Origin: Thermoproteota archaeon
Lineage (GTDB): Archaea; Thermoproteota; Thermoprotei; Gearchaeales; Gearchaeaceae
Direction of reading: 5' to 3'
NCBI GenBank assembly: GCA_021324265.1
Contig: JAJPJK010000003.1
Span: 1 to 38,798 of the forward strand
Length of the DNA stretch: 38,798 bases
This document shows, piece by piece, positions 25,184-37,112 of this stretch; the first letter of the stretch is position 1, and each line of letters begins with the position of its first letter. The translations under genes and the position numbers were made by a program. Under the pieces are notes generated by a model, which saw nothing but the letters and a program-made list of their open reading frames with translations, was not told where the DNA came from and made no database searches.

Positions 25184-26425
25184 ACGACTTCTTTGATTAA
25201 ATCCAGTCCAAATATAAAGGGATTAGCCTGCAGAGACTGCGGAAAGTTCTTTGAAATTAGCCTAAACCATGCATGTGATGAATGTTTCGGTGCCCTTGAT
25301 GTCATATATGACTTTGAAAAAGCAAAACCTAGCAAGGATAGGATTGCTTTACGTGAGAAAAACATGTGGAGATATAGGGAACTCTTACCTTTCGATCCAG
25401 TTGATGCGATATATGATATTCAAGCTGGTTATACTCCTTTAATAAAAGCTAAGAAACTTGGTGAAAAACTTGGGCTTAAAGAACTTTACATAAAAAATGA
25501 TTCAGTTAATCCCACTTTTTCGTTCAAAGATAGGCCTGCTGCTGTAGGCGTAAATGCTGCCATTCACTTTGGGCTCGATACTGTTGGTTGCGCTTCAACA
25601 GGTAATCTTGCCAGCGCCACTGCTGCGTATGCAGCAAGAGCTGGTCTGAATTGTTTAGTATTTGTTCCAGCAAATACTGAGAGAACAAAGGTTGCGCAGG
25701 CTAGAGCCTATGGGGCAAAGCTTATAGAAGTCGATGGTACATATGATGACGTAAACAGGCTTGTATCACAGGCCGCAGATCTCTACAACATTGGGGTAGT
25801 CAATGTGAATTTAAGGCCCTATTATGTAGAAGGATCCAAGACTTTAGCTTTCGAAGTAGCAGAGCAAATGAACTGGGAGGCACCTGATGCATTTATAGTT
25901 CCAACTGCAAGCGGTGCTATGTTCAATGCAATTTGTCGTGGCTTCGAAGAGCTTAGGCAGCTAAATCTTATAAATGAAGAGCCCTCTAATCCCATCGTAG
26001 CTCAGGCAGAAGGCTGTAATCCTATCGTCAAAGCTTTTAAGAAGAATTCAGATCATATTGAAGTCATAGAAAAGCCCAAAACAATTGCTCTAAGCTTGGC
26101 GATTGGGAATCCTGGGGATGGAGTTTATGTTCTCAAAAGATTGAAGAAAAAAGGTTTCGCAGAGGATGCAAGTGATGATGAAATTGTTGAGGGCATTTGC
26201 TTACTCGCAAAATATGAAGGTATCTTTACTGAACCTGCAGGAGGTGTAGTGATAGCTGTATTGAAAAAGCTTGTCGATGAAGGAAAAATAGATAGAAGTG
26301 ATAAAGTAGTTTGCTATATAACCGGCAATGGTTTAAAAACGTCTGAGGTCATTAGCGATAAGCTTGAATCCGTCACGTTGATAAAACCTAATTTAAAGGA
26401 ATTGGAGCGTGTTATAAATGGCTAA
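25178..26425 (+). CDS. thrC: Threonine-synthase-like fold II PLP enzyme
   Basis: 415 residues. An N-terminal zinc ribbon has Cys18, Cys21, Cys33 and Cys36. The PLP lysine is Lys117 in NPTFSFKDRP, followed by the phosphate loop region (STGNLASATAAYAARAG) and EPAGG near the C-terminus. These are the marks of archaeal threonine synthase, which turns O-phosphohomoserine into threonine. The gene overlaps a MoaD/ThiS-like gene by 8 nt, and an E1 gene follows. A fold II PLP enzyme beside a sulfur carrier and its activator recalls mycobacterial CysM-CysO-MoeZ, so an O-phospho-amino-acid sulfhydrylase is an alternative. SFKDRPA, rather than the common SFKDRG, also recalls CysM (SIKDRPA). The symbol is provisional. 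Confidence 0.8.
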   Translation: MQTTSLIKSSPNIKGLACRDCGKFFEISLNHACDECFGALDVIYDFEKAKPSKDRIALREKNMWRYRELLPFDPVDAIYDIQAGYTPLIKAKKLGEKLGLKELYIKNDSVNPTFSFKDRPAAVGVNAAIHFGLDTVGCASTGNLASATAAYAARAGLNCLVFVPANTERTKVAQARAYGAKLIEVDGTYDDVNRLVSQAADLYNIGVVNVNLRPYYVEGSKTLAFEVAEQMNWEAPDAFIVPTASGAMFNAICRGFEELRQLNLINEEPSNPIVAQAEGCNPIVKAFKKNSDHIEVIEKPKTIALSLAIGNPGDGVYVLKRLKKKGFAEDASDDEIVEGICLLAKYEGIFTEPAGGVVIAVLKKLVDEGKIDRSDKVVCYITGNGLKTSEVISDKLESVTLIKPNLKELERVING

Positions 26426-26684
26426 GGTAGAGGTCTTTTTACCCGCATTACTTAGAAAAGATAAGGCGAAATCCAAAATAATCGTAGAGGCCTCAAATCT
26501 AAAGGAGTTAATAGATTGGTTAGGTAGAAACGGAATTGTAGATAACGATAAATTGTTTGATAGCAATGGTATGTTGAGGAAATTGATAAACGTATTCATC
26601 AATGGAAAGTTACAAAATGATTTAAATGCTGTATTGAATGATGGAGATGAGGTTAGTTTCATTTTAGCTGTTGCAGGTGGTTAG
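26418..26684 (+). CDS. MoaD/ThiS-like ubiquitin-fold sulfur carrier
   Basis: 88 residues with the beta-grasp pattern and the exact C-terminal Gly-Gly (SFILAVAGG then stop) that is adenylated and thiocarboxylated in MoaD, ThiS and CysO or conjugated in SAMPs. It starts inside the stop of the PLP-enzyme gene, and the E1 gene begins 1 nt after its stop. The partner set is therefore clear: carrier and activating enzyme in one operon. No MoaE, ThiG or other cofactor gene is near, so molybdopterin or thiazole synthesis is not specially supported. Confidence 0.85.
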   Translation: MAKVEVFLPALLRKDKAKSKIIVEASNLKELIDWLGRNGIVDNDKLFDSNGMLRKLINVFINGKLQNDLNAVLNDGDEVSFILAVAGG

Positions 26685-26685
26685 C

Positions 26686-27753
26686 ATGCAGGACTTCAAA
26701 AGGTATGCTCGTCAAATAGTGCTCTGTGGCATAGATTTCGAGGGCCAAGCTAAACTAATGAAAGCAAAAGTTGCACTAATAGGCTTGGGTGGACTTGGTT
26801 CCCCTGTTGCGTATCAACTCGCAGGTATGGGCATAGGCCATATAAGGCTTATAGATAGAGATATTGTATCCTTGAGTGATCTTAACAGACAATACCTTTA
26901 CAATCCTAGCAATGTTGGTGAATTCAAAGCCGAGGTCGCCGCAGCTAGGCTCAGTGAATTCAATCCAGAAATTGAGATTGTGCCCTATCCTCTTGCAGTA
27001 ACTGAGTTCAATATCGAAGATCTAATAAAAGGTTGTGATGTGGTTTTAGATACAACGGATTCGATAGCTGCGAGATATATTGTTAATAGAGCATGCTTGA
27101 AGTTAGGCATACCTTACATATATGGAGCTGGAATTGAGAATAACGGCCTCGTTTTTACAGTAATCCCCAATAAAACGGCATGTCTTGAATGCTTATTTCC
27201 TGGCCTTAAGGATGAGGATCTCCCGAAATGTTCAAATGTAGGCGTCAATCCTCCAATCCTTAGTCTTGTTGCAGGTATTCAAGTAAGCGAGGCCACCAAG
27301 ATAATAATGAAAAAAGAGCCACAACTTGCGAACAGGATTTTGATACTCGATTTACAGAATCTTTCTTTTGATTTCATGGATGTAAAACAAAGAGAAGATT
27401 GCAGTGCTTGCAGGAATCCAGAGCTTCACAGCGAAAACAAGCATATTCATATCTTCGAGGAATCAAAGGGTATTTTCTATATTTATCCTCCAAGTAAAAT
27501 CGATCTTGATTTATCGAAGATTGAGAACGAATTAAGATATGAAGGTATGGAGAATATTATAAGAACTAAATATTCAGTTCGATTTAAAGCATTAGAAGGG
27601 GCGCTATTCAATATAAGTAAGTACGGTTTCGCTGTTGTTAGATACGATGTGAAGAATAGTGGCAAAGAGAACATGAAGGATCTTTATCTTTCGATTTACG
27701 AGAAAATTTTGTTCAAAGAAAGGAAATTGGAGGGCGCTGCAGCAAAGCTCTAA
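26686..27753 (+). CDS. ThiF/MoeB-type E1-like activating enzyme with extra C-terminal domain
   Basis: 355 residues from the ATG at 26686; an in-frame TTG at 26671 would run into the MoaD gene. The opening FKRYARQIVLCGIDFEGQ, the nucleotide fold GLGGLGSP (33-40), Asp57 and NRQY are standard for MoeB/ThiF. Two Cys pairs (CLEC and CSAC) would hold zinc. These residues adenylate the carrier's Gly-Gly. From about residue 250 on there is a roughly 105-residue tail, not a rhodanese domain, of a type I do not recognise; the sulfur donor must be another protein. Tight spacing suggests a complex with the carrier. Confidence 0.88.
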   Translation: MQDFKRYARQIVLCGIDFEGQAKLMKAKVALIGLGGLGSPVAYQLAGMGIGHIRLIDRDIVSLSDLNRQYLYNPSNVGEFKAEVAAARLSEFNPEIEIVPYPLAVTEFNIEDLIKGCDVVLDTTDSIAARYIVNRACLKLGIPYIYGAGIENNGLVFTVIPNKTACLECLFPGLKDEDLPKCSNVGVNPPILSLVAGIQVSEATKIIMKKEPQLANRILILDLQNLSFDFMDVKQREDCSACRNPELHSENKHIHIFEESKGIFYIYPPSKIDLDLSKIENELRYEGMENIIRTKYSVRFKALEGALFNISKYGFAVVRYDVKNSGKENMKDLYLSIYEKILFKERKLEGAAAKL

Positions 27754-27775: not shown

Positions 27776-28126
27776 GTGCAAATCTTTAGATATTCTATTG
27801 AGGGAGACGGTATAAAGGATTTCATTGATTTATTGAAGAGGGAATTCATGACCTCTTATAGTTACATGAATCAAGGAAAAGATACTATCATATTAGTTTC
27901 TGAAAGATATTCTTTTCTTCAAAACTCTGATATGGCCGCAGTGATAGTAGTAGATATTCTCAATGATCGAGCTTGTAATCTAGAACTTATTGTAGCTGGA
28001 GGCAGGACAGGAATTTTTAGGCTAGATATTTACGGTCGTGAAAAAGCTACGCTTAAAAGCATAAAAGAGCTTGTAGAGAAACTATGCAATGAAAAAGGTT
28101 TAAGGATAATTAGTTTCGGTCCTTGA
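27776..28126 (+). CDS. DUF6054-like small protein, last gene of the sulfur-carrier operon
   Basis: 116 residues from a GTG 22 nt after the E1 gene. The order DTIILVSERYSFLQNSDMAA, then LELIVAGGRTGIFRLDIYG and a final helix, resembles the small DUF6054 family, a fold with a GG turn near residue 79. No catalytic site is obvious. Its 3' end overlaps the convergent thioredoxin-like gene by 27 nt. Membership of the operon is shown by spacing; a role in sulfur transfer is an inference. Confidence 0.6.
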   Translation: MQIFRYSIEGDGIKDFIDLLKREFMTSYSYMNQGKDTIILVSERYSFLQNSDMAAVIVVDILNDRACNLELIVAGGRTGIFRLDIYGREKATLKSIKELVEKLCNEKGLRIISFGP

Positions 28127-28492
28127 TTCTTTGGCCTTGATGAGATCAAGCGCCTCTAGAGCAAGCTTTTCTGGATCCTCAATAGAACCTTGAGAAATCT
28201 TTTTGCCGTTGACAGCGATGATAGGTAGCTTTCCTGAACGGTATTTGATCATTTTGAATATCCCTCTTAACGTCAAAGCTTCTGTGATTATTACCTTCGC
28301 ATATATTTCTTTAGAGATTGCATTTATGAAATCAGTAATCTTCGCTGAAGTTTCAAGCATTTCCTGAGGATATTCTTTGAGTTGTATTTTTTTATGATCA
28401 AATTTGAAAGATTGCCATACTATTTCACAATGTTCACAATGTCCTAGCATTATTGGATCAAGCGTTAAAATCTCGATTTTAATTTCTTTCAT
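28100..28492 (-). CDS. Thioredoxin-like protein with CxxC, last gene of the ArsA-pair operon
   Basis: 130 residues from the ATG at 28492 (an in-frame TTG lies two codons upstream). HCEHCEIV near 19-26 gives a CxxC at the place of a thioredoxin active site, and LPIIAVNGKKISQG near 90-103 resembles the cis-Pro strand of small archaeal thioredoxin-like proteins. The middle is longer than in glutaredoxins. It overlaps the preceding gene, so it belongs to the paired-ATPase operon and may reduce or bind a thiol or metal ligand for it (inference). Confidence 0.6.
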   Translation of the reverse strand: MKEIKIEILTLDPIMLGHCEHCEIVWQSFKFDHKKIQLKEYPQEMLETSAKITDFINAISKEIYAKVIITEALTLRGIFKMIKYRSGKLPIIAVNGKKISQGSIEDPEKLALEALDLIKAKESRTETNYP

Positions 28493-28985
28493 CTTCAAGA
28501 TGGCATTGGCTTTCTCTTAGCGTAGCAAGCACACTATTGACCCATTCTTCACCTCCAATGAATTCAAGCAAAATTGTTCTTTCTGTAATTTCGCAATAGG
28601 TATAAACTGCCAACACGTTATAGTCACCTTTTCTGAAGTATCTTCTCCTAAACTTGTAATATATTGCTTTGTGTTTACCTACATTTGTATTACCTTCTTC
28701 AAACTGTTTGCTATAATCTTTAATTTTGTTAAGAGGTCTCACTCCTGGCCAAATCTTTATTCGCATCGATATATTTCCAAGCGGTGTAGATACGAAATGC
28801 TCTATTTCCCCATCTCTTACCCATTTCACTTTACCCTGTGAAGTCGATGATAGAACATCAGAGGTCATTGGTGTATTTATTACCCTCCATGATTGCGGTA
28901 TTGAAATAACAAGAAAGTTGTATACCCCGAATAGAGCATTCCCTACTGCTAATGTGACCTTAAGTGGTTCTTCAGTGTAGGTCAT
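28479..28985 (-). CDS. Uncharacterised 168-residue protein in the ArsA-pair operon
   Basis: A soluble alpha/beta protein with alternating strands (SWRVINTPM; ISMRIKIWPG; AIYYKFRRRYF; VLAVYTYCEITERTILLEFI). No signal peptide or known motif is seen. The strands with KFRRRYF and the final EEWVNSVLATL helix suggest a small folded domain, perhaps of the LpqN/PsbP or SRPBCC type, but I cannot name it. It overlaps both neighbours by 14-20 nt, so it is made together with the ATPases. Confidence 0.65.
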   Translation of the reverse strand: MTYTEEPLKVTLAVGNALFGVYNFLVISIPQSWRVINTPMTSDVLSSTSQGKVKWVRDGEIEHFVSTPLGNISMRIKIWPGVRPLNKIKDYSKQFEEGNTNVGKHKAIYYKFRRRYFRKGDYNVLAVYTYCEITERTILLEFIGGEEWVNSVLATLRESQCHLEDERN

Positions 28986-29277
28986 ATTCAGCCAATTCTT
29001 CGAATATATCTCTTTCTCTAACCATATTTTTCTTGAACAAATCTAGGCCTCCTATGAAATATGGCAAAAGTCTAAGAGTATAATAGTTCGCAAGAAATGG
29101 TATGCCCAAGAATTCGCCAACAATCAAGAAATACATTAGGTTCTCATAGGCTTTTGATATTTTTATTGTTTCTTTATAAAGCTCAAAAGTTGAGAGGCCA
29201 AATATAAAGTCCTTTATAGCCTGTTTTGAGGGGATGAGCGAAGATAATCTTTTCCTAGCCTCCTTTTTCGAGCTCAT
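28972..29277 (-). CDS. Small hydrophobic partner protein of the ArsA pair, copy 2
   Basis: 101 residues. Its C-terminal half, MYFLIVGEFLGIPFLANYYT then LRLLPYF and VRERDIFEEL, matches the protein at 31251-31520 (FMIMTMGDMLGMPLLPPYYS, LRLLPYM, LRDRDVTDI). The shared core is G-hydrophobic-GxP-YYxLRLLPY-R-RD. One amphipathic or membrane-inserting helix is likely. It overlaps the ATPase gene before it by 23 nt and the next gene by 14 nt. Presence of one such gene on each side of an ATPase pair suggests one partner per ATPase. Confidence 0.7.
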   Translation of the reverse strand: MSSKKEARKRLSSLIPSKQAIKDFIFGLSTFELYKETIKISKAYENLMYFLIVGEFLGIPFLANYYTLRLLPYFIGGLDLFKKNMVRERDIFEELAEYDLH

Positions 29278-30238
29278 TAATCACCTTCCTCAAGTCCTCA
29301 AGTCCTATAACATCGTTAGGATATAAGTGGATTTTTCCGATTATTTGATTTCCAAAATATTTATTGATGAGCTCAAGATTCATGTTCTGTTCATTCACCT
29401 TCGACTTCAAAAATCCTGTCTCGTCTCTTATCGCTTCATCCTCTGGTATGAGCATGTTTATGATTACACCGCTTGATGGAATTTCGTAAGCGCTTACCAT
29501 CTCCATGAATCGTTTGACCACTGATATAGATAAAACAGTAGGAATCGTGACGAAGATGAAACTTGTTTTGCTTGGGTCTGTTATTATGTTCCTTGCGTTT
29601 GTATATTTGTTGTAGATGTTAAGTAGATTTAGGAGGACTGGATCCTTCTTGATTTCTTCCTCCACTTTATCCTTTCTCCAGCTCAATTGTTTTCTCAATG
29701 AGAGCGTTTCTTGTCTTGATTTTATTACTCTTTGTAGCCAAAGTCCATAAATTTTCGAAAGGCCTATTAGCCTTATTGCATTAGCCACAGCAGCGGTATC
29801 GAATATAATTTTATCATATTGATTTCCTTCAATAAGTATTATATCCATCATTTTATCGAAACTTGCCGCCTCTTGGAATGCAGGATTCGTGGTGGCGATG
29901 TCGATGAAAGGCTTAGGATCCACAGGTATTTCAGCCCACTTTAAAAATTCTCTTAGTAAATTCGAAATTTGATCTCTGTATTTTTCTACAGCTTCATCAA
30001 TTTCTACTTCAAGTGCATAAAGATTTTCAATGCCCGCAATAGGTTTTATCGTTCCTCCACTTAGGTCTTGTTGAAATATAGTAGATAAAGAATGAACTGG
30101 GTTGAAGCTAGCAAGCAATGTCTTCATACCTTTTTCAGCAAGTCTTAGCGCTAGCGCAGAGGCTACTACAGTTTTACCTACTCCTCCCTTCCCTCCTACG
30201 AATATAAACTTTGAGCTAAGTTTATTTTCCATGTTCAT
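29255..30238 (-). CDS. ArsA/Get3-family ATPase, subunit 2 (switch I Asp replaced by Asn)
   Basis: 327 residues. The deviant Walker A GGKGGVGKT is at 15-23, including the signature Lys17. The switch I segment that normally reads TDPAHS is FNPVHSLS here, with Asn46 where the catalytic Asp (Asp57 of yeast Get3) should be; the codon is AAC. Later motifs (IIFDTAAVANAIRL for switch II, near 140-153) are altered too: PTGHTLR-like residues are missing. It overlaps subunit 1 by 4 nt. The likely role is a regulatory or slow partner in a heterodimer, comparable to the mycobacterial ArsA-like pair Rv3679/Rv3680. No arsenic genes (ArsB, ArsD) are near. Confidence 0.85.
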   Translation of the reverse strand: MNMENKLSSKFIFVGGKGGVGKTVVASALALRLAEKGMKTLLASFNPVHSLSTIFQQDLSGGTIKPIAGIENLYALEVEIDEAVEKYRDQISNLLREFLKWAEIPVDPKPFIDIATTNPAFQEAASFDKMMDIILIEGNQYDKIIFDTAAVANAIRLIGLSKIYGLWLQRVIKSRQETLSLRKQLSWRKDKVEEEIKKDPVLLNLLNIYNKYTNARNIITDPSKTSFIFVTIPTVLSISVVKRFMEMVSAYEIPSSGVIINMLIPEDEAIRDETGFLKSKVNEQNMNLELINKYFGNQIIGKIHLYPNDVIGLEDLRKVINELEKGG

Positions 30239-31254
30239 TTTCCTATAAGGCTTTCTAAATCAATACTTGATTCCCAGAGTTCCGAGGAAACTTTGCTCAG
30301 CATTTCTAGGCCCTTTGGTTCCCTATTATACATGGGTATGAGACCTACAATCAAATCCTTGAACTTATCCACGATTTCCTTGAGAAGTGGCTTTTGAGAA
30401 ATAACTTTCTTTTTCAGATATTCTGAAGCCTTTGGATCGCTCAAAATCCAAGGCGGGTATACTTGATTTATGACTATACCTCCAACTCTTAGATCTAGGC
30501 TCTCGAACATCTTTATGGCCCTTTCGGTATCTAGGATCGACATTTTCTCAGGAGTCAAGACCATTAGGAAAGCAGTACCATTGGGATCGACGACTAAATT
30601 TCTGAAACTCATGATCTTGTTTCTTATATCTTCTAGTTCATTCAACATCAAATCTTCCCTTTCAGTAACCTTTTGCCTCTTCATTGCTGCTGCAGCTGCC
30701 TCATATTCATAAGCTTGTCTCCTTGCTTCTGTGATCTTATCAACCCATTTGCTCAAAAGATCAGCCATTGCTATCATCCTTATACCATGTCCAAAAGGAG
30801 GCATATCGAAAATATAGTAATCATACTTACTTTGGGTTACGACTTCGAGCATTGCATCATAGACCGCGGATTCATACATTGCAGGCTCAGCTATAGTTGA
30901 TTCGATGTAATCTTCTACTTCTTGGGGTATTTCTTCTATCTTATACATGTCTCTGATTTTCTGCCTAATCCCTTCAACATATTCTTTGATCCTTTTGTCT
31001 GCATCTATCTCTAATACATATAGGTTGTTTGCTATTGGTATTTCGCCCTTGCCAAATAGGTCTCTTTCGAATACATCACTTAGCGATGCCTGCGGATCTG
31101 TGGAAAAACATAATACCCTTTTGTTCAGTTTATTGGAAATAAGATAAGATAAAGCAGCGCTACAAGTTGTTTTGCCTAATCCTCCTTTGCCAGCAAATAT
31201 AATTACTTTTACATTGGGTTTTCTTTCGAAGAGATATTTCAGCCCTACTTTCAT
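30235..31254 (-). CDS. ArsA/Get3-family ATPase, subunit 1
   Basis: 339 residues with Walker A AGKGGLGKTT at 21-30 (signature Lys23), switch I FSTDPQASLSDVF with the catalytic-type Asp53 kept, and switch II IFDMPPFGHGIRM near 148-160. The segment between (RIKEYVEGIRQKIRDMYKIE and EVEDYIESTIAEPAMYESAV) is the helical client- or anion-binding region. It has no CxxC for the Get3 zinc dimer, so an unlike dimer with subunit 2 is more likely than a Get3-like homodimer. It starts at the stop of the small protein gene (ATGA) and overlaps subunit 2 by 4 nt. Confidence 0.88.
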   Translation of the reverse strand: MKVGLKYLFERKPNVKVIIFAGKGGLGKTTCSAALSYLISNKLNKRVLCFSTDPQASLSDVFERDLFGKGEIPIANNLYVLEIDADKRIKEYVEGIRQKIRDMYKIEEIPQEVEDYIESTIAEPAMYESAVYDAMLEVVTQSKYDYYIFDMPPFGHGIRMIAMADLLSKWVDKITEARRQAYEYEAAAAAMKRQKVTEREDLMLNELEDIRNKIMSFRNLVVDPNGTAFLMVLTPEKMSILDTERAIKMFESLDLRVGGIVINQVYPPWILSDPKASEYLKKKVISQKPLLKEIVDKFKDLIVGLIPMYNREPKGLEMLSKVSSELWESSIDLESLIGK

Positions 31255-31520
31255 CCTACAACGATGTCTGTTACATCTCTATCTCTAAGCATCCTTAGCT
31301 TCCAAGACTTGATGTTAGGCACCATATATGGAAGCAAGCGAAGCGAATAATAAGGAGGTAAAAGAGGCATGCCGAGCATATCTCCCATTGTCATGATCAT
31401 GAATAGATACTCTGTATATGTTTTCATCTTCAATAAAGACGTAACATGGCTGTGCACCATAAAACCCATCAAAGTATCTTTTAAAGCGCCTAAAGGATTA
31501 TCTTTCTTTTCTTTCTTCAT
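31251..31520 (-). CDS. Small hydrophobic partner protein of the ArsA pair, copy 1
   Basis: 89 residues, first gene of the six-gene operon. A basic start (MKKEKKDNPLGALKDTLMGF) precedes a hydrophobic stretch (FMIMTMGDMLGMPLLPPYYS) and the shared LRLLPYM and MLRDRDVTDI. It is a paralogue of the protein at 28972-29277 in sequence and in place next to an ATPase. A membrane adaptor or client-like binding helix for the ATPases is conceivable; I know no named family. A TATA-like TTTTTTATAC at 31552-31561 lies about 36 nt before the ATG. Confidence 0.7.
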   Translation of the reverse strand: MKKEKKDNPLGALKDTLMGFMVHSHVTSLLKMKTYTEYLFMIMTMGDMLGMPLLPPYYSLRLLPYMVPNIKSWKLRMLRDRDVTDIVVG

Positions 31521-31576
31521 AAAACCATCTATGTTAAGAATGAGAAAAATAGTATAAAAAATTTTAATTAAATATT

Positions 31577-33271
31577 TTAGGCTGATTTGGCCTTTTCTCT
31601 TCTATATCTGAAATAACCCAATATCAGATAAGTTGTCATTATAACGCCTAATACCGCCAGTACTGCGCCCAAGACTGCAGAGAATCCGTTTGATATTTGA
31701 ACTGCAGTCTGGCCAAATACCTTGGCCACGTTTGTCTGAGGTCCCAATGGTTTATTTGCAAAGAGGAAGTTTGCATAAACATAAGTCTCCCAGACCAGAG
31801 CAGCAACCGTGGTTATAGCCATGAATATACCGGGTATGAATACGTATGCCGTAGGCCTTTTCTGGCTAGCCAAATAAACAGCTACTAGCAATAAAGCTAA
31901 GCCTGCTAGTAATTGATTTGTTCCTCCGAAATATATCCATAAGTTCGTCCAGCTACCTGTAAATGCCAAGAATATCATTACAATTAACATTACAATGATT
32001 GCAACGTGTTTATTACCAAAGATCGATTTCTCAAAGAGCTCCGCAGCTACATTCCTCCATACCCTTACAAAGAGCATCGAAGTTATTAAACCCATAACTA
32101 CTATGAATACTGAATAGAAGAGTGTCATTCCTGTTGAACTTATCCCTATAAGAGCACTTGTTAGTTTACCTGCACCCTGTGCGTAATTCGTCGCTGCACC
32201 TATGCTACCTGCTAATATAGCTACTGCTGCAACAGAAGATAGCCCAACAATACCTTCAGTTATCATGGCTCCACCTCCAACAGGCCTGGCATCAGTTTCA
32301 TACTCTAGCTGCTTTGATGAAAGACCGCTAGAAATTAAGCTATGCCATCCTGAAATAGCGCCACATGCTATGGTAACGAAAAGTATAGGCCATATTGGTC
32401 CAGATTGGAATACTGAAGGATCTGTGATCCATAGATTCTTAACTGCTGCTTGCGCCATGGAAAGTCCTGTTAATGGAGTAAATAGTGCTGCTATGATAAC
32501 TAATATCAAAGCGATAATCGTAGGTAAGAAACCTACGAATATTGTAGGAAGAAGAAATCGCGGCATCGGTGTGGATGCTGCTATATAATAGATTATCGCC
32601 AATAAGAATAACCAGAAAAGAACGGTTAAGCTTCCTGGCCATGTAGTTGTCGTTCCTAACTTTGGATCTAGAAAATTAACAGGAGGCACTTGAATCTGTG
32701 GGAAAGTAGCTACCAATATTATACCTGCAAAAACAACTATTATCGCTATTATTGTCGCAATCAGTATATCAACTTTTAATCTGAATACTAAATGTCCAAA
32801 TATAGCTCCCATAAACAATATGAAAATCACTGGAATAAATGTACCGACTATTCTATTTAATGTATCTACAATCACCCAAGCAAACACTGCTGTTATTATT
32901 ATCAAATATATCATTATGTATACAAGCAGAATCTTCCTCACTCTATCGCCCATCAGGTTATATGCAATGGGACCCATGGAGCGGCCTTCATTTCTAACCG
33001 ACATCATCATTGCAGAGTAATCCTGTACCCATCCAATGAAGAAGTTTCCTACTATCAACCAAATCAGAGCAGGAAGCCATCCGTAGAAAGCCGTCGCGAC
33101 AATTGGGCCTACGATGGGGCCTAGTGCAGCTACACTTTTGAATTGATAACCATATAGTACATACCTGCTAACGGGGAAATATTCTACACCATCAGTATAT
33201 AGCTTGGCAGGCGTTGGCCTATTTGGATCGGTTGCCCATATTTTCTTATCAACGTATTTAGAGTAAATCAT
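31577..33271 (-). CDS. cstA: CstA-family carbon starvation protein (peptide/pyruvate carrier), N-terminus uncertain
   Basis: 564 residues from the first standard in-frame start (ATG at 33271), with 14 or more spans. Typical CstA pieces are FPVSRYVLYGYQFKSVAALG, GPIVGPIVATAFYGWLPALI and ACGAISGWHSLISSGLSSKQ. CstA proteins take up pyruvate or peptides. The family's first helix is missing in this frame but is encoded just upstream in the same phase (AIGLVVYLIAYM), without ATG, GTG or TTG. A GTG at 33350, 28 nt after a perfect TATA box, is one base out of phase across an A5 run. The true protein therefore probably starts at 33350 with a single-base indel, or at an ATA or ATT codon. It is co-directional with the ArsA operon. 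Confidence 0.88.
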   Translation of the reverse strand: MIYSKYVDKKIWATDPNRPTPAKLYTDGVEYFPVSRYVLYGYQFKSVAALGPIVGPIVATAFYGWLPALIWLIVGNFFIGWVQDYSAMMMSVRNEGRSMGPIAYNLMGDRVRKILLVYIMIYLIIITAVFAWVIVDTLNRIVGTFIPVIFILFMGAIFGHLVFRLKVDILIATIIAIIVVFAGIILVATFPQIQVPPVNFLDPKLGTTTTWPGSLTVLFWLFLLAIIYYIAASTPMPRFLLPTIFVGFLPTIIALILVIIAALFTPLTGLSMAQAAVKNLWITDPSVFQSGPIWPILFVTIACGAISGWHSLISSGLSSKQLEYETDARPVGGGAMITEGIVGLSSVAAVAILAGSIGAATNYAQGAGKLTSALIGISSTGMTLFYSVFIVVMGLITSMLFVRVWRNVAAELFEKSIFGNKHVAIIVMLIVMIFLAFTGSWTNLWIYFGGTNQLLAGLALLLVAVYLASQKRPTAYVFIPGIFMAITTVAALVWETYVYANFLFANKPLGPQTNVAKVFGQTAVQISNGFSAVLGAVLAVLGVIMTTYLILGYFRYRREKAKSA

Positions 33272-33372
33272 GTATGCTATTAGGTATACAACAAGGCCTA
33301 TAGCAACATATGGAGCAGGGGTATTTAGAATGTCTACGATTATTTTTCACCCCTAAAATTCTAATTTTTTAC

Positions 33373-33383
33373 ATTTATATAAA
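33373..33383 (-). promoter_or_regulatory. TATA box of cstA
   Basis: TTTATATAAAT (minus strand) is centred about 28 nt before the GTG at 33350 and over 100 nt before the ATG at 33271, so it points to the GTG as the real 5' end. Confidence 0.65.
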
Positions 33384-33527
33384 CATTTCTTTTATTGAGA
33401 TCATTATTTAATCCATGATTAATGATATTTAATAGGATGTAGTATACAAATATTTTAAAAGCTTTTCTCTATCCTCAATCTTAAGGAGTGGATTAATCTC
33501 TCGTCTTATATTTCAGAATTAAGGATT

Positions 33528-34319: not shown

Positions 34320-35906
34320 TTAAAGACTCTTAAAGCCTAATCGGAATAGCCAAGTAAGAGCTCTTATTACTCCTATAGTATTGTTAAGATTGATATTTCT
34401 ATAATTTAGGGAGCTTAGACCTTTTGTCTCTTTGAGTTGCAAGAATACCCACTCAATGTTATCAAATATTTTATCTATCATGAATTTTGCAAGTCTATTT
34501 ATCATCTTGTTTTTAATGTTGCTTGTAAGTGCAGGCACAAGCTTTCTTGTTATTTTGAAGTTATATTTCCAGCTAATGTATAACAAGTCCCAATAGTTCC
34601 TTGGCATTTTCTTCAATGTGGGGAAAGGGTTCTTTCTAATCCTCGAAGTTTCCATTGGTATTACAGGTAGGGGAAAAACCCATGCCGTCAATTCATGATC
34701 TATGATATCCTGAACCAATTTTATGCTTAACTCAACATCTTCTTCAGTTTCATCGAAATAGCCTATAGTCATCGTGTAGCATGGATAAATGTAGTTCTCA
34801 TTCATGATAGTTGTAGCATCTATTATTACGTCTCTCCATTGCCTCGGCTCATATGGGAAAGATTTCGCTCTCATATACTTAGTGAAAATCCTCTCGCTTC
34901 CAGTTTCAAGTCCTACAACAGGGGCATCTGCTCTGTCGAAGCTATAATGGGCTATTTCAGCCATTTCTCTTATTGTTTTAGGGCTCTCTTTAACTGGTGG
35001 CGCCGATATATGCGGGAACCATATTCCATCTACGCCCATAACCATCACATCTTTGTAAAGTTTTGTTATGGCATCATGATTTACGCGAAGCCTTTGAGAA
35101 CCATAGAGCATTATATCGTCAGTTATAAATTCTACTCGGTCTATTCCTCCCTTTAGGTTCACTTCAATTTCTTTTTTTATGATATCAAGGGGAATGGATC
35201 TGAAGGTTTCTGGCGTAATGCTGCAAAAAGAGCATCCACGAGGGCAACCACGGGTTATTTGAACTTCACCGAGTCTAGCAGGATAAAGTATGGGTGGGAT
35301 TTCATCTATCTTTGCATCTTTTCCATATATTAACTTGGGTACATCTTTTCCATTTAACATTTCATTTACCAAGCTTGGAAGCGTATGTTCAGCCTCTCCT
35401 ATGTAAAGTACATCCAGCCAGTCAGGTCTTTCTTTTATAAGCTCCCATGCAGCCGGTCCTCCTACGATGACTTTGAAATTATACTTCTTTTTAAGTCTTG
35501 AGACCTTTTCACCCAATTCTTCAAAAAATCTCGCAGTCCAGCTAGGGCCGCCTCCAAAGAGCATGCATAACTTTGTGCTTACTGGATCAATGCCTAGTGG
35601 ATCATGTGCTGTTAAGCCGAGAATTTTTGTCTCATTATTTACAACCCTTTCCAAGTATTCAGGAGGTGTTACAATTACATCCTTTATTCCTGCATAATAT
35701 AGAGCAGCTTCAACTTTTCTCAAGGCATATGGTGCGAAGTATGCCCTTCCTTCATTATCAGCAGGAATTGGCGGCGTAAATATTCTATCCATAAAAATCC
35801 TAGGGACTAGCCTGTAAGGCATGCAGGCTACATAACCTAAGGCACTTGACCCGCCATAATCAGTAAAAGATCCCCTATCTGCCGTGAGAACAACACAGTG
35901 TCTCAC
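34320..35906 (-). CDS. Radical SAM protein with N-terminal B12-binding-like domain
   Basis: 528 residues from a GTG at 35906. Residues about 60-190 have the shape of a B12-binding-like Rossmann domain (KVIVGGPAAWELIKERPDWL and YIGEAEHTLPSLVNEML) but without the DxHxxG motif, so cobalamin binding to His is doubtful. The radical SAM cluster C221-x3-C225-x2-C228 sits in RGCPRGCSFCS. The later VVGLETGSERIF and TIGYFDETEEDVELSI are usual for MiaB-like and BchE-like members. The product is unknown; methylthiolation or radical ring chemistry are options. It is in an operon with a dienelactone hydrolase. No strong TATA box was found. Confidence 0.85.
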   Translation of the reverse strand: MRHCVVLTADRGSFTDYGGSSALGYVACMPYRLVPRIFMDRIFTPPIPADNEGRAYFAPYALRKVEAALYYAGIKDVIVTPPEYLERVVNNETKILGLTAHDPLGIDPVSTKLCMLFGGGPSWTARFFEELGEKVSRLKKKYNFKVIVGGPAAWELIKERPDWLDVLYIGEAEHTLPSLVNEMLNGKDVPKLIYGKDAKIDEIPPILYPARLGEVQITRGCPRGCSFCSITPETFRSIPLDIIKKEIEVNLKGGIDRVEFITDDIMLYGSQRLRVNHDAITKLYKDVMVMGVDGIWFPHISAPPVKESPKTIREMAEIAHYSFDRADAPVVGLETGSERIFTKYMRAKSFPYEPRQWRDVIIDATTIMNENYIYPCYTMTIGYFDETEEDVELSIKLVQDIIDHELTAWVFPLPVIPMETSRIRKNPFPTLKKMPRNYWDLLYISWKYNFKITRKLVPALTSNIKNKMINRLAKFMIDKIFDNIEWVFLQLKETKGLSSLNYRNINLNNTIGVIRALTWLFRLGFKSL

Positions 35907-35962
35907 GACTGATATGATAATGTTTATTCTTGAATATATCCGTTTATCTAGCCTTCGAAGAT

Positions 35963-36448
35963 TTATCTAAGTATTTCAAGAATTATATCCCTTATTGTGG
36001 TGCCAGTTAAAGGCATAGGCGGCCTTCTGATGTTTCCTGTAGCTTGTGTCATGAAATATGAATAAAAGGCGGAAAGGCTCATAGGAACTACTATGATTGC
36101 GAATATTGCAAAGAGCAAGGGAGATACATCTAAAGAGAAGAAAATTTCGAAGGTATAGACGTTCAGATTGTAATTTAGCATGCCCACGTTAAGTGTTATT
36201 ACAGTATAAAAGAAGCTGTAAATATATGCCAAGGTTATGAGAATTGGTGATATTATATACATCCTAAATGCAGATGCAGCTATGCAAATGATGGTGATAT
36301 CCAAGAACGTCCGCGTTATTACTATGGGTTTCATGAGAACGATTGCAGGTATAAGAATAAGCAATAAGTAGATCAAGATCGTCCTTAATAGGCCTTCAAT
36401 TACAGTAATGATCAAATAAGATTGTATAAACTTCAAGCTATCTTTCAT
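35963..36448 (-). CDS. Multi-span membrane protein, fifth gene of an envelope operon
   Basis: 161 residues with about four hydrophobic spans (12-40, 45-68, 75-95 and 108-130) and a proline-rich basic cytoplasmic-looking tail (NIRRPPMPLTGTTIRDIILE). No family recognised. It overlaps the preceding gene by 4 nt (ATGA), so it is the last member of a five-gene membrane operon. The pattern of several integral proteins plus two exported ones suggests a membrane complex. Confidence 0.65.
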   Translation of the reverse strand: MKDSLKFIQSYLIITVIEGLLRTILIYLLLILIPAIVLMKPIVITRTFLDITIICIAASAFRMYIISPILITLAYIYSFFYTVITLNVGMLNYNLNVYTFEIFFSLDVSPLLFAIFAIIVVPMSLSAFYSYFMTQATGNIRRPPMPLTGTTIRDIILEILR

Positions 36449-36831
36449 CCTCTTTTTACCTCGAAAGAGAACCTATAGAGGCCATTTATAGTAGCAGCTA
36501 ATTTAAGATCTATATTTACAATTAATGTACTAGGAACCTTTAAGGGTATGGTTATACTTATTTGGTCACCTTTTTGAAAAGTATCTATCTTGCCGCTTTT
36601 ATTATATATGTTACCGAATATGTCTTGGGCTGTAGCGTTATAAACTATATCTTTTAGATAACTTGTTCCTTCATTGACTAACGTGAGAATGATTTCATTT
36701 TGATGTGCTTCAAATTTGAAATAAATATGTCCTTTTGCAAGGTCTTGCAGAAAAAGCGTCAGGGGGCTAAAGATCAGGAAGATAACGAATATGGAAAACA
36801 CTGATATGAGGAATTCGTGTCTTAGAGTCAT
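36445..36831 (-). CDS. Single-anchor exported protein, fourth gene of the envelope operon
   Basis: 128 residues: an N-terminal anchor (about 8-28) and an outside beta-rich domain of about 95 residues (HQNEIILTLVNEGTSYLKDI onward) like an immunoglobulin-type fold. Its layout recalls small cell-surface proteins of archaea, but no family is recognised. It overlaps both neighbours by 4 nt. Confidence 0.65.
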   Translation of the reverse strand: MTLRHEFLISVFSIFVIFLIFSPLTLFLQDLAKGHIYFKFEAHQNEIILTLVNEGTSYLKDIVYNATAQDIFGNIYNKSGKIDTFQKGDQISITIPLKVPSTLIVNIDLKLAATINGLYRFSFEVKRG

Positions 36832-37112
36832 TTTCTACTCTCCTTAAGAAACTCTAAACCGTATCTCAAGAGGATAGAGCTAGCTGCAATTACGACACCC
36901 AAGAATGCGACCTTTACTATAAGTACGAGAAGCTCGCTAGCCATGAAGCCTAAAATTGAAGGTACATTTGATACTTCTCCTATTGAAGCTCTGTAGAAGA
37001 AATATTCTCTTAGTGCAAGCCCTGAGGAAATTATGAGAAGGCCGAACCCCAATAAAATGAAGATATATCCCATTCTCCTTTTTTTAAGCTGTTCTTCCAT
37101 AAGATTGTTCAT
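36828..37112 (-). CDS. Two-span membrane protein, third gene of the envelope operon
   Basis: 94 residues. A basic leader (MNNLMEEQLKKRRMG) is followed by span 1 (about 15-34), a short outer loop and span 2 (about 58-85), with a charged tail. No family recognised. It overlaps the fourth gene by 4 nt and begins 18 nt after the second gene. Confidence 0.65.
   Translation of the reverse strand: MNNLMEEQLKKRRMGYIFILLGFGLLIISSGLALREYFFYRASIGEVSNVPSILGFMASELLVLIVKVAFLGVVIAASSILLRYGLEFLKESRK

Follow-up and report, generated by a model that had tools for sequence, protein, structure and literature searches.

An operon with an unequal pair of ArsA-type ATPases in a Thermoproteota archaeon belongs to the CstA-CstX-ArsA system

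Gene organization of the locus

The window analyzed here is a stretch of 38,798 nucleotides (nt) from a Thermoproteota archaeon of the family Gearchaeaceae, whose genome assembly is 95% complete. Between positions 28100 and 31520 it carries six overlapping genes that encode, in order, a small protein (S1), two ATPases of the ArsA type (A1 and A2), a second small protein (S2), a protein of 168 amino acids (aa) that we call U, and a thioredoxin-like protein (T). An earlier note on this DNA, made from the sequence alone, had described these six genes, and all six open reading frames (ORFs) were confirmed on the minus strand. The set begins farther upstream than 31520, the start that had been supposed, since the gene for a CstA-family transporter at 31577 to 33271 belongs to it as well. 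The operon is a fresh member of a known system, CstA-CstX-ArsA, and not an undescribed archaeal machine. As far as identity alone is concerned, we have little doubt that the six genes supply the ATPase accessory module of this system in its paired form, with U and T added.

All genes of the set lie on the minus strand. S1, or CstX-1 (31251 to 31520; 89 aa), matches the small-protein model NF041419 (E = 5e-10), carries the core GDMLGMPLLPPYYSLRLLPY together with RDRD, and is predicted to fold as a helical hairpin; S2, or CstX-2 (28972 to 29277; 101 aa), matches the same model (E = 7e-7) and is 35% identical to S1. A1 (30235 to 31254; 339 aa) and A2 (29255 to 30238; 327 aa) both match ArsA_ATPase PF02374 (E = 1e-67 and 3e-62), which bears out the description of two unlike ATPases of this type. 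U (28479 to 28985) is modeled with a Mog1/PsbP-like beta fold, and T (28100 to 28498; 132 aa from a TTG start) contains a CxxC motif. Successive ORFs from S1 to T overlap by 4, 4, 23, 14, and 20 nt, the last overlap being 14 nt if T begins at the ATG at 28492.

The CstA gene encodes 564 aa from its first ATG and ends 56 nt upstream of S1 on the same strand. Its product matches PF02554 (E = 2.4e-95) and, under the cutoff, the pyruvate/proton symporter CstA model NF011590 (5e-44), and it has 15 hydrophobic segments. The match to the hidden Markov model starts at 33307, and the CstA frame runs on upstream of the first ATG (33271) to about 33346, with an apparent first membrane helix (VDILNTPAPYVAIGLVVYLIAYM). 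No ATG, GTG, or TTG lies in frame between 33272 and 33346, and a GTG at 33350 is off by one base; the explanation is either an unusual start codon or an assembly indel within the A-run. A TATA-like element, tttatataaatg, is suggested by the sequence upstream of CstA (33351 to 33390, minus strand). The gap between CstA and S1 (31521 to 31576, minus strand) is T-rich with a TATA-like stretch, and a separate promoter for S1 to T is possible there. A promoter and terminator scan of the region, built for bacterial sites, returned chance-level matches only.

The small proteins are relatives of CstX

The two small proteins had been proposed to be paralogs sharing a YYxLRLLPY core and an R-[ED]RD motif. 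Both motifs are present and are conserved across relatives, and the two proteins find each other in a search of the genome (E = 2e-11). The NF041419 model, named "cory-CC-star," is matched by 86 of the 89 S proteins. S1 and S2 score 39.3 and 29.2 bits against its cutoff of 80 and end in VVG and DLH, without a Cys-Cys tail; on both counts, membership of the NF041419 equivalog was rejected. By size, position, and partner genes, S1 corresponds to the CstX described by Castillo and Saier in 2010.

In the AlphaFold2 model of S1 (predicted local distance difference test score [pLDDT], 84; predicted template modeling score, 0.55), helices spanning residues 9 to 49 and 56 to 88 meet at a conserved GMPLLPP turn. 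The hydrophobicity of CstX is modest and is centered on this turn (best 19-residue mean, 1.1 to 1.5).

The position of the second small protein varies among loci: it follows A2 in 34, precedes S1 in 28, and lies on the other strand in 6. The earlier proposal of a small-protein-plus-ATPase unit duplicated as a mirror pair stands with respect to a single duplication, whereas the mirror order fits only one of several arrangements. In three loci (L083, L089, and L095), the gene for a CstX-2-like protein lies far away from the ATPase genes, which shows that linkage of CstX-2 to the main locus is not obligatory. In a small-protein tree (91 columns, weak), the S proteins of single-ATPase units fall apart from S1 and S2, consistent with the ATPase tree described below.

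The set is linked to CstA across the phylum

S1 and NF041419 were used to search relatives together with 300 Thermoproteota genomes, which gave 38 loci; the window adds a 39th. Small proteins adjoin ArsA genes almost everywhere they occur, a linkage that the earlier note had raised. By gene clustering, 34 of the 39 loci include a CstA homolog, a constancy equal to that of the ATPases. The nearest equivalent outside the order, in Desulfurococcaceae AG1 (L124), has the identical seven-gene order CstA-S1-A1-A2-S2-U-T. The association persists where CstA lies on the opposite strand (L077, L113, and L123).

A broad S profile detected S in 49 of the 300 genomes (a 50th hit, in G140, is a chance-level match in a 718-aa frame). 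CstA (E ≤ 1e-20) was present in 47 of these 49 genomes; the Fisher P value of 1e-41 is descriptive, since the genomes are related. Of the other two, one (L090) has a truncated CstA where a contig ends, and the other (L246) has a fragment of CstA next to S-ArsA. Most of the inspected CstA genomes in which NF041419 had detected no S proved, with the better profile, to have an adjacent S-ArsA, usually with a third gene. The family of this third gene (c5/c6/c9/c19), found in most relatives, encodes proteins of about 200 aa with one membrane helix and fits the published CstY; CstY was not detected in the 95%-complete genome of the window. The remaining CstA-only genomes belong mostly to one family (f16), in which CstA is divergent, and two haloarchaeal plasmid CstA genes have no CstX or ArsA annotated alongside. 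When the CstA tree was examined by accessory type, the groups were clustered yet mixed, the "single" label being confounded by truncated loci. The membrane-linked client suggested earlier was correct in outline, and the next gene, which had been overlooked, names it as CstA.

The two ATPases differ at the catalytic Switch I residue

Both A1 and A2 are members of the TIGR00345 GET3/ArsA subfamily by score and retain the P-loop GKGGxGKT. They differ in Switch I, which reads STDPQAS in A1 of the window and SFNPVHS in A2, where Asn replaces the catalytic Asp. All 96 A2 sequences recovered, which include some loci fetched twice, have NPVHS, whereas the Asp is kept in every A1 (DPQAS or close) and in every single ArsA (DPAH or close). 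In each pair, Asp comes first and Asn second, the sole apparent exception (L130) being an artifact of an extended ORF. The Asn of A2 aligns with the Asp of the archaeal Get3 structure 3ug6 and of other solved archaeal and algal relatives. In yeast Get3 the equivalent residue, D57, is essential for hydrolysis, and the D57N substitution traps the ATP state (PMC12506534). From these motifs, A1 is predicted to be the hydrolyzing subunit and A2 an ATP-binding, non-hydrolyzing subunit, and because of this division an obligate A1-A2 heterodimer is likely.

In a tree of 75 ATPases, A1 and A2 formed sister clades (support, 98 and 100) apart from the single ArsA proteins, and the two subtrees largely matched. 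On this phylogeny, A1 and A2 are the products of one old duplication and have been inherited together. In two loci (L071 and L076), A1 is split into two ORFs by a frameshift or an assembly error, and A2 is intact. Two genomes of the same family as the window also encode a more distant ArsA-like protein of 389 aa with GKGGVGKS and DPAHT (L061, 18158 to 19327; L062, 8730 to 9899), near the operon, on the opposite strand and outside the set.

Several better-known ATPases of this family were considered and rejected as identities for the pair. A1 and A2 are single-domain proteins without the cysteines of the arsenite site (A1 has two cysteines and A2 none), they score below the TIGR04291 cutoff, and no ars genes accompany them, which excludes the arsenite pump ArsA. 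Canonical Get3/TRC40 proteins have a zinc CxxC together with DPAH and DTAPTGH; A1 and A2 lack the CxxC, and their Switch I motifs are paired with the altered Switch II sequences DMPPFGHG and DTAAVANA. No arsenic resistance or tail-anchor pathway genes were found among the neighbors examined, as the earlier note had stated, and neither pathway is indicated by a cysteine or zinc site. The mycobacterial pair BagA/BagB (Rv3679/Rv3680) is likewise an unlike pair of the ArsA/Get3 family; A1 and A2, however, reach at best 46 and 34 bits with NF053622 and NF053621, for which the cutoffs are 400 and 521. A1 and A2 also differ from Get3 and from BagA/BagB in the CstA and CstX genes that accompany them.

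U and T track the paired form of the system

The model of U is of high quality (pLDDT 91.9), and its family has the invariant residues H105, C131, R136, C161, and H162. By sequence, U had no Pfam or PDB match; Foldseek placed its model near MOG1, PsbP, DcrB, and EagT6/SciW (TM scores of 0.37 to 0.48; E of about 1e-3). U was also compared with CstY, and the two are not related. The thioredoxin-like nature of T, claimed previously, is supported through its family (Thioredoxin_3 in 6 of 35 members, best E = 1.5e-4; PDB thioredoxins, E of about 0.004), whereas the evidence from this protein alone is weak (PF13192, E = 0.14).

Full-length U is present in 23 of the 27 genomes with a paired system and in none of the single-unit genomes, and 23 of the 25 genomes with U have the paired system. 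For T, the corresponding counts are 21 of 27 and 21 of 24. In G061, one of the two genomes with U and no S, U adjoins CstY close to where a contig ends, and the assembly may therefore lack the other genes of the set. U and T therefore track the paired version of the system, and they are possibly auxiliary, thiol- or metal-related components.

The system extends into bacteria

When 84,980 species genomes were scanned with an S pattern, 370 relatives were confirmed, and the best 80 of the 370 were examined. These 80 include representatives of Chloroflexota, Myxococcota, Thermodesulfobacteriota, Spirochaetota, Methylomirabilota, Acidimicrobiales, Bathyarchaeota, and others, and the typical order among them is CstA ... 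S ... A1-A2, with T, U, and another S often present as well. RefSeq annotation also places CstA, cory-CC-star, and an ArsA family ATPase in succession on bacterial plasmids of Cytobacillus, Paracoccus, and Pseudochrobactrum. Bacterial loci with the same set rule out an archaeal-only system, so the pair is not the archaeal speciality that it had been taken for. An archaeal-looking set occurs on contigs of Chloroflexi metagenome-assembled genomes (L116, L117, and L109), by transfer or misbinning. The A1 and A2 of L116 both fall inside archaeal clades, an apparent case of at least one transfer between archaea and Chloroflexi.

Neighboring genes

Downstream of the operon, a DUF6054 gene (27776 to 28126) is convergent with T and overlaps it tail to tail by 27 nt. 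At 26418 to 27753, the gene for a small ThiS/Urm1-like protein with a Gly-Gly end overlaps that for a ThiF/E1-like enzyme, a sulfur-carrier or ubiquitin-like pair. On the other side of the set, at 34320 to 37112, a radical SAM protein gene follows three small genes (161, 128, and 94 aa) that overlap or lie close together and have no Pfam match.

Relation to known systems

The system had been taken to be without prior description; it was in fact reported by Castillo and Saier in 2010, who found that ArsA homologs share operons with CstA and CstX and in some cases with CstY, a protein of about 210 aa with one membrane helix (PMC2963123). The window shares with their operons CstA, a CstX of about 90 aa directly before a single-domain ArsA of about 330 aa, and the absence of ars genes. 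It also shares the adjacent ArsA pair of their cluster 15 (Pyrobaculum arsenaticum and Symbiobacterium), which lacks CstY and in Pyrobaculum has two CstX paralogs (PMC2963123). They observed that the Switch I Asp is replaceable only by Asn, the division between partners going unnoted, and proposed that CstX couples ArsA energy to CstA (PMC2963123). That description does not include the strict Asp/Asn division, the parts U and T, or the breadth seen here. No experimental follow-up since 2010 was found in the open-access literature, which leaves most subscription journals out of reach.

The cory-CC-star proteins, the bacterial CstX, occupy the same position between CstA and ArsA and are homologous in sequence, but they end in Cys-Cys, a tail that the CstX proteins of the window lack. 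The Escherichia coli loci cstA-ybdD and btsT-yjiX-yjiA resemble the window in that a CstA-family transporter is followed by a small protein, and pyruvate uptake by CstA depends on YbdD (PMC5847655). The btsT locus also encodes a P-loop NTPase, YjiA, but this is a CobW GTPase, a family different from ArsA. YbdD and YjiX end in Cys-Cys like the bacterial cory-CC-star proteins and unlike CstX of the window, and homology of CstX to either (PF04328) was undetectable (hhalign probabilities of about 1% and 0.4%). The combination of a small protein and a P-loop NTPase next to CstA-family transporters is thus a recurrent one. YbdD (L210, 6183 to 6380) matches NF033934, "KCU-star family selenoprotein," a CstA-linked small-protein family whose model name suggests a Cys-Sec C terminus in some members.

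A proposed one-site ATP clamp acting on CstA

We lean, by a modest degree, toward a fuller reading of the locus, in which a one-site ATP clamp formed by A1 and A2 assembles or gates CstA through CstX. The two ATPases would form an obligate heterodimer in which both subunits bind ATP through the P-loop and hydrolysis occurs at A1 alone, A2 being a natural counterpart of the ATP-trapping D57N form of Get3. The dimer would close on ATP binding and reopen with hydrolysis at the single A1 site. The CstX hairpins, with a hydrophobic tip and a charged WKxxxLRERD end, would bridge the ATPase and CstA. The ATPase cycle would thereby assemble or gate CstA, and direct powering of uptake is less likely. 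In E. coli, CstA and BtsT import pyruvate by proton symport without an ArsA, and for this reason we favor assembly or gating over direct pumping. By analogy with E. coli, the substrate may be pyruvate or peptides.

Several observations weigh against a clamp on CstA. The 56-nt gap may place CstA and the six genes on different transcripts. CstX is modeled, with moderate confidence, as a hairpin without distinguishing features, for which a fold search of the PDB gave no match, and a second CstX was not found nearby in 31 paired loci, about a third. E. coli CstA and BtsT function with no ArsA at all. The coupling of ArsA to CstA has the standing only of a proposal in the literature (PMC2963123).

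The main rival is a targeting role like that of Get3, in which the ATPase pair ferries CstX hairpins or segments of CstA to the membrane, with CstA as the end partner. It draws on the placement of both ATPases in the GET3/ArsA subfamily, with archaeal Get3 among their closest solved relatives, on the hydrophobic tip of CstX, and on the resemblance of the modeled fold of U to EagT6/SciW, chaperones of membrane segments. The missing zinc site, the modest hydrophobicity of CstX, and the absence of an insertase gene nearby count against it, and general tail-anchored clients are not implied. On balance we judge targeting to be unlikely.

Less probable still is direct powering of transport, with CstX making CstA an ATP-driven pump in the way that ArsA does for ArsB, as Castillo and Saier originally proposed (PMC2963123). 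The strict linkage of CstA, CstX, and ArsA and the ArsA-ArsB precedent speak for a pump; the E. coli symporters, the missing arsenite-site cysteines, and the disabling of one of the two catalytic sites throughout speak against it. That a general ArsA/Get3 heterodimer like BagA/BagB sits beside CstA by chance would suit G003, where CstA lies about 40 kb away from S1-A1-A2-S2, but is very improbable given the near-perfect genome-wide co-occurrence with CstA, conserved across domains, and the distance from the Bag models.

Implications

Taken at its fullest, the clamp reading would make A1 and A2 a dedicated ArsA-type heterodimer with one non-hydrolyzing subunit that controls CstA via two CstX hairpins, with T and U adding thiol or metal control; we offer this extended form tentatively and regard it as doubtful. 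CstA transporters are widespread, and their pairing with ArsA-type ATPases in many lineages was noticed in 2010. The invariant Asp/Asn split provides a clean, testable handle, since a partner predicted to be hydrolysis-dead is fixed in both archaea and bacteria. U and T join the CstA-CstX-ArsA system as new candidate components, and btsT-yjiX-yjiA suggests that a small protein with a P-loop NTPase is a solution that recurs in the CstA transporter family. If the clamp is real, a one-site ATP switch would be a new way to couple ATP hydrolysis to a carrier.

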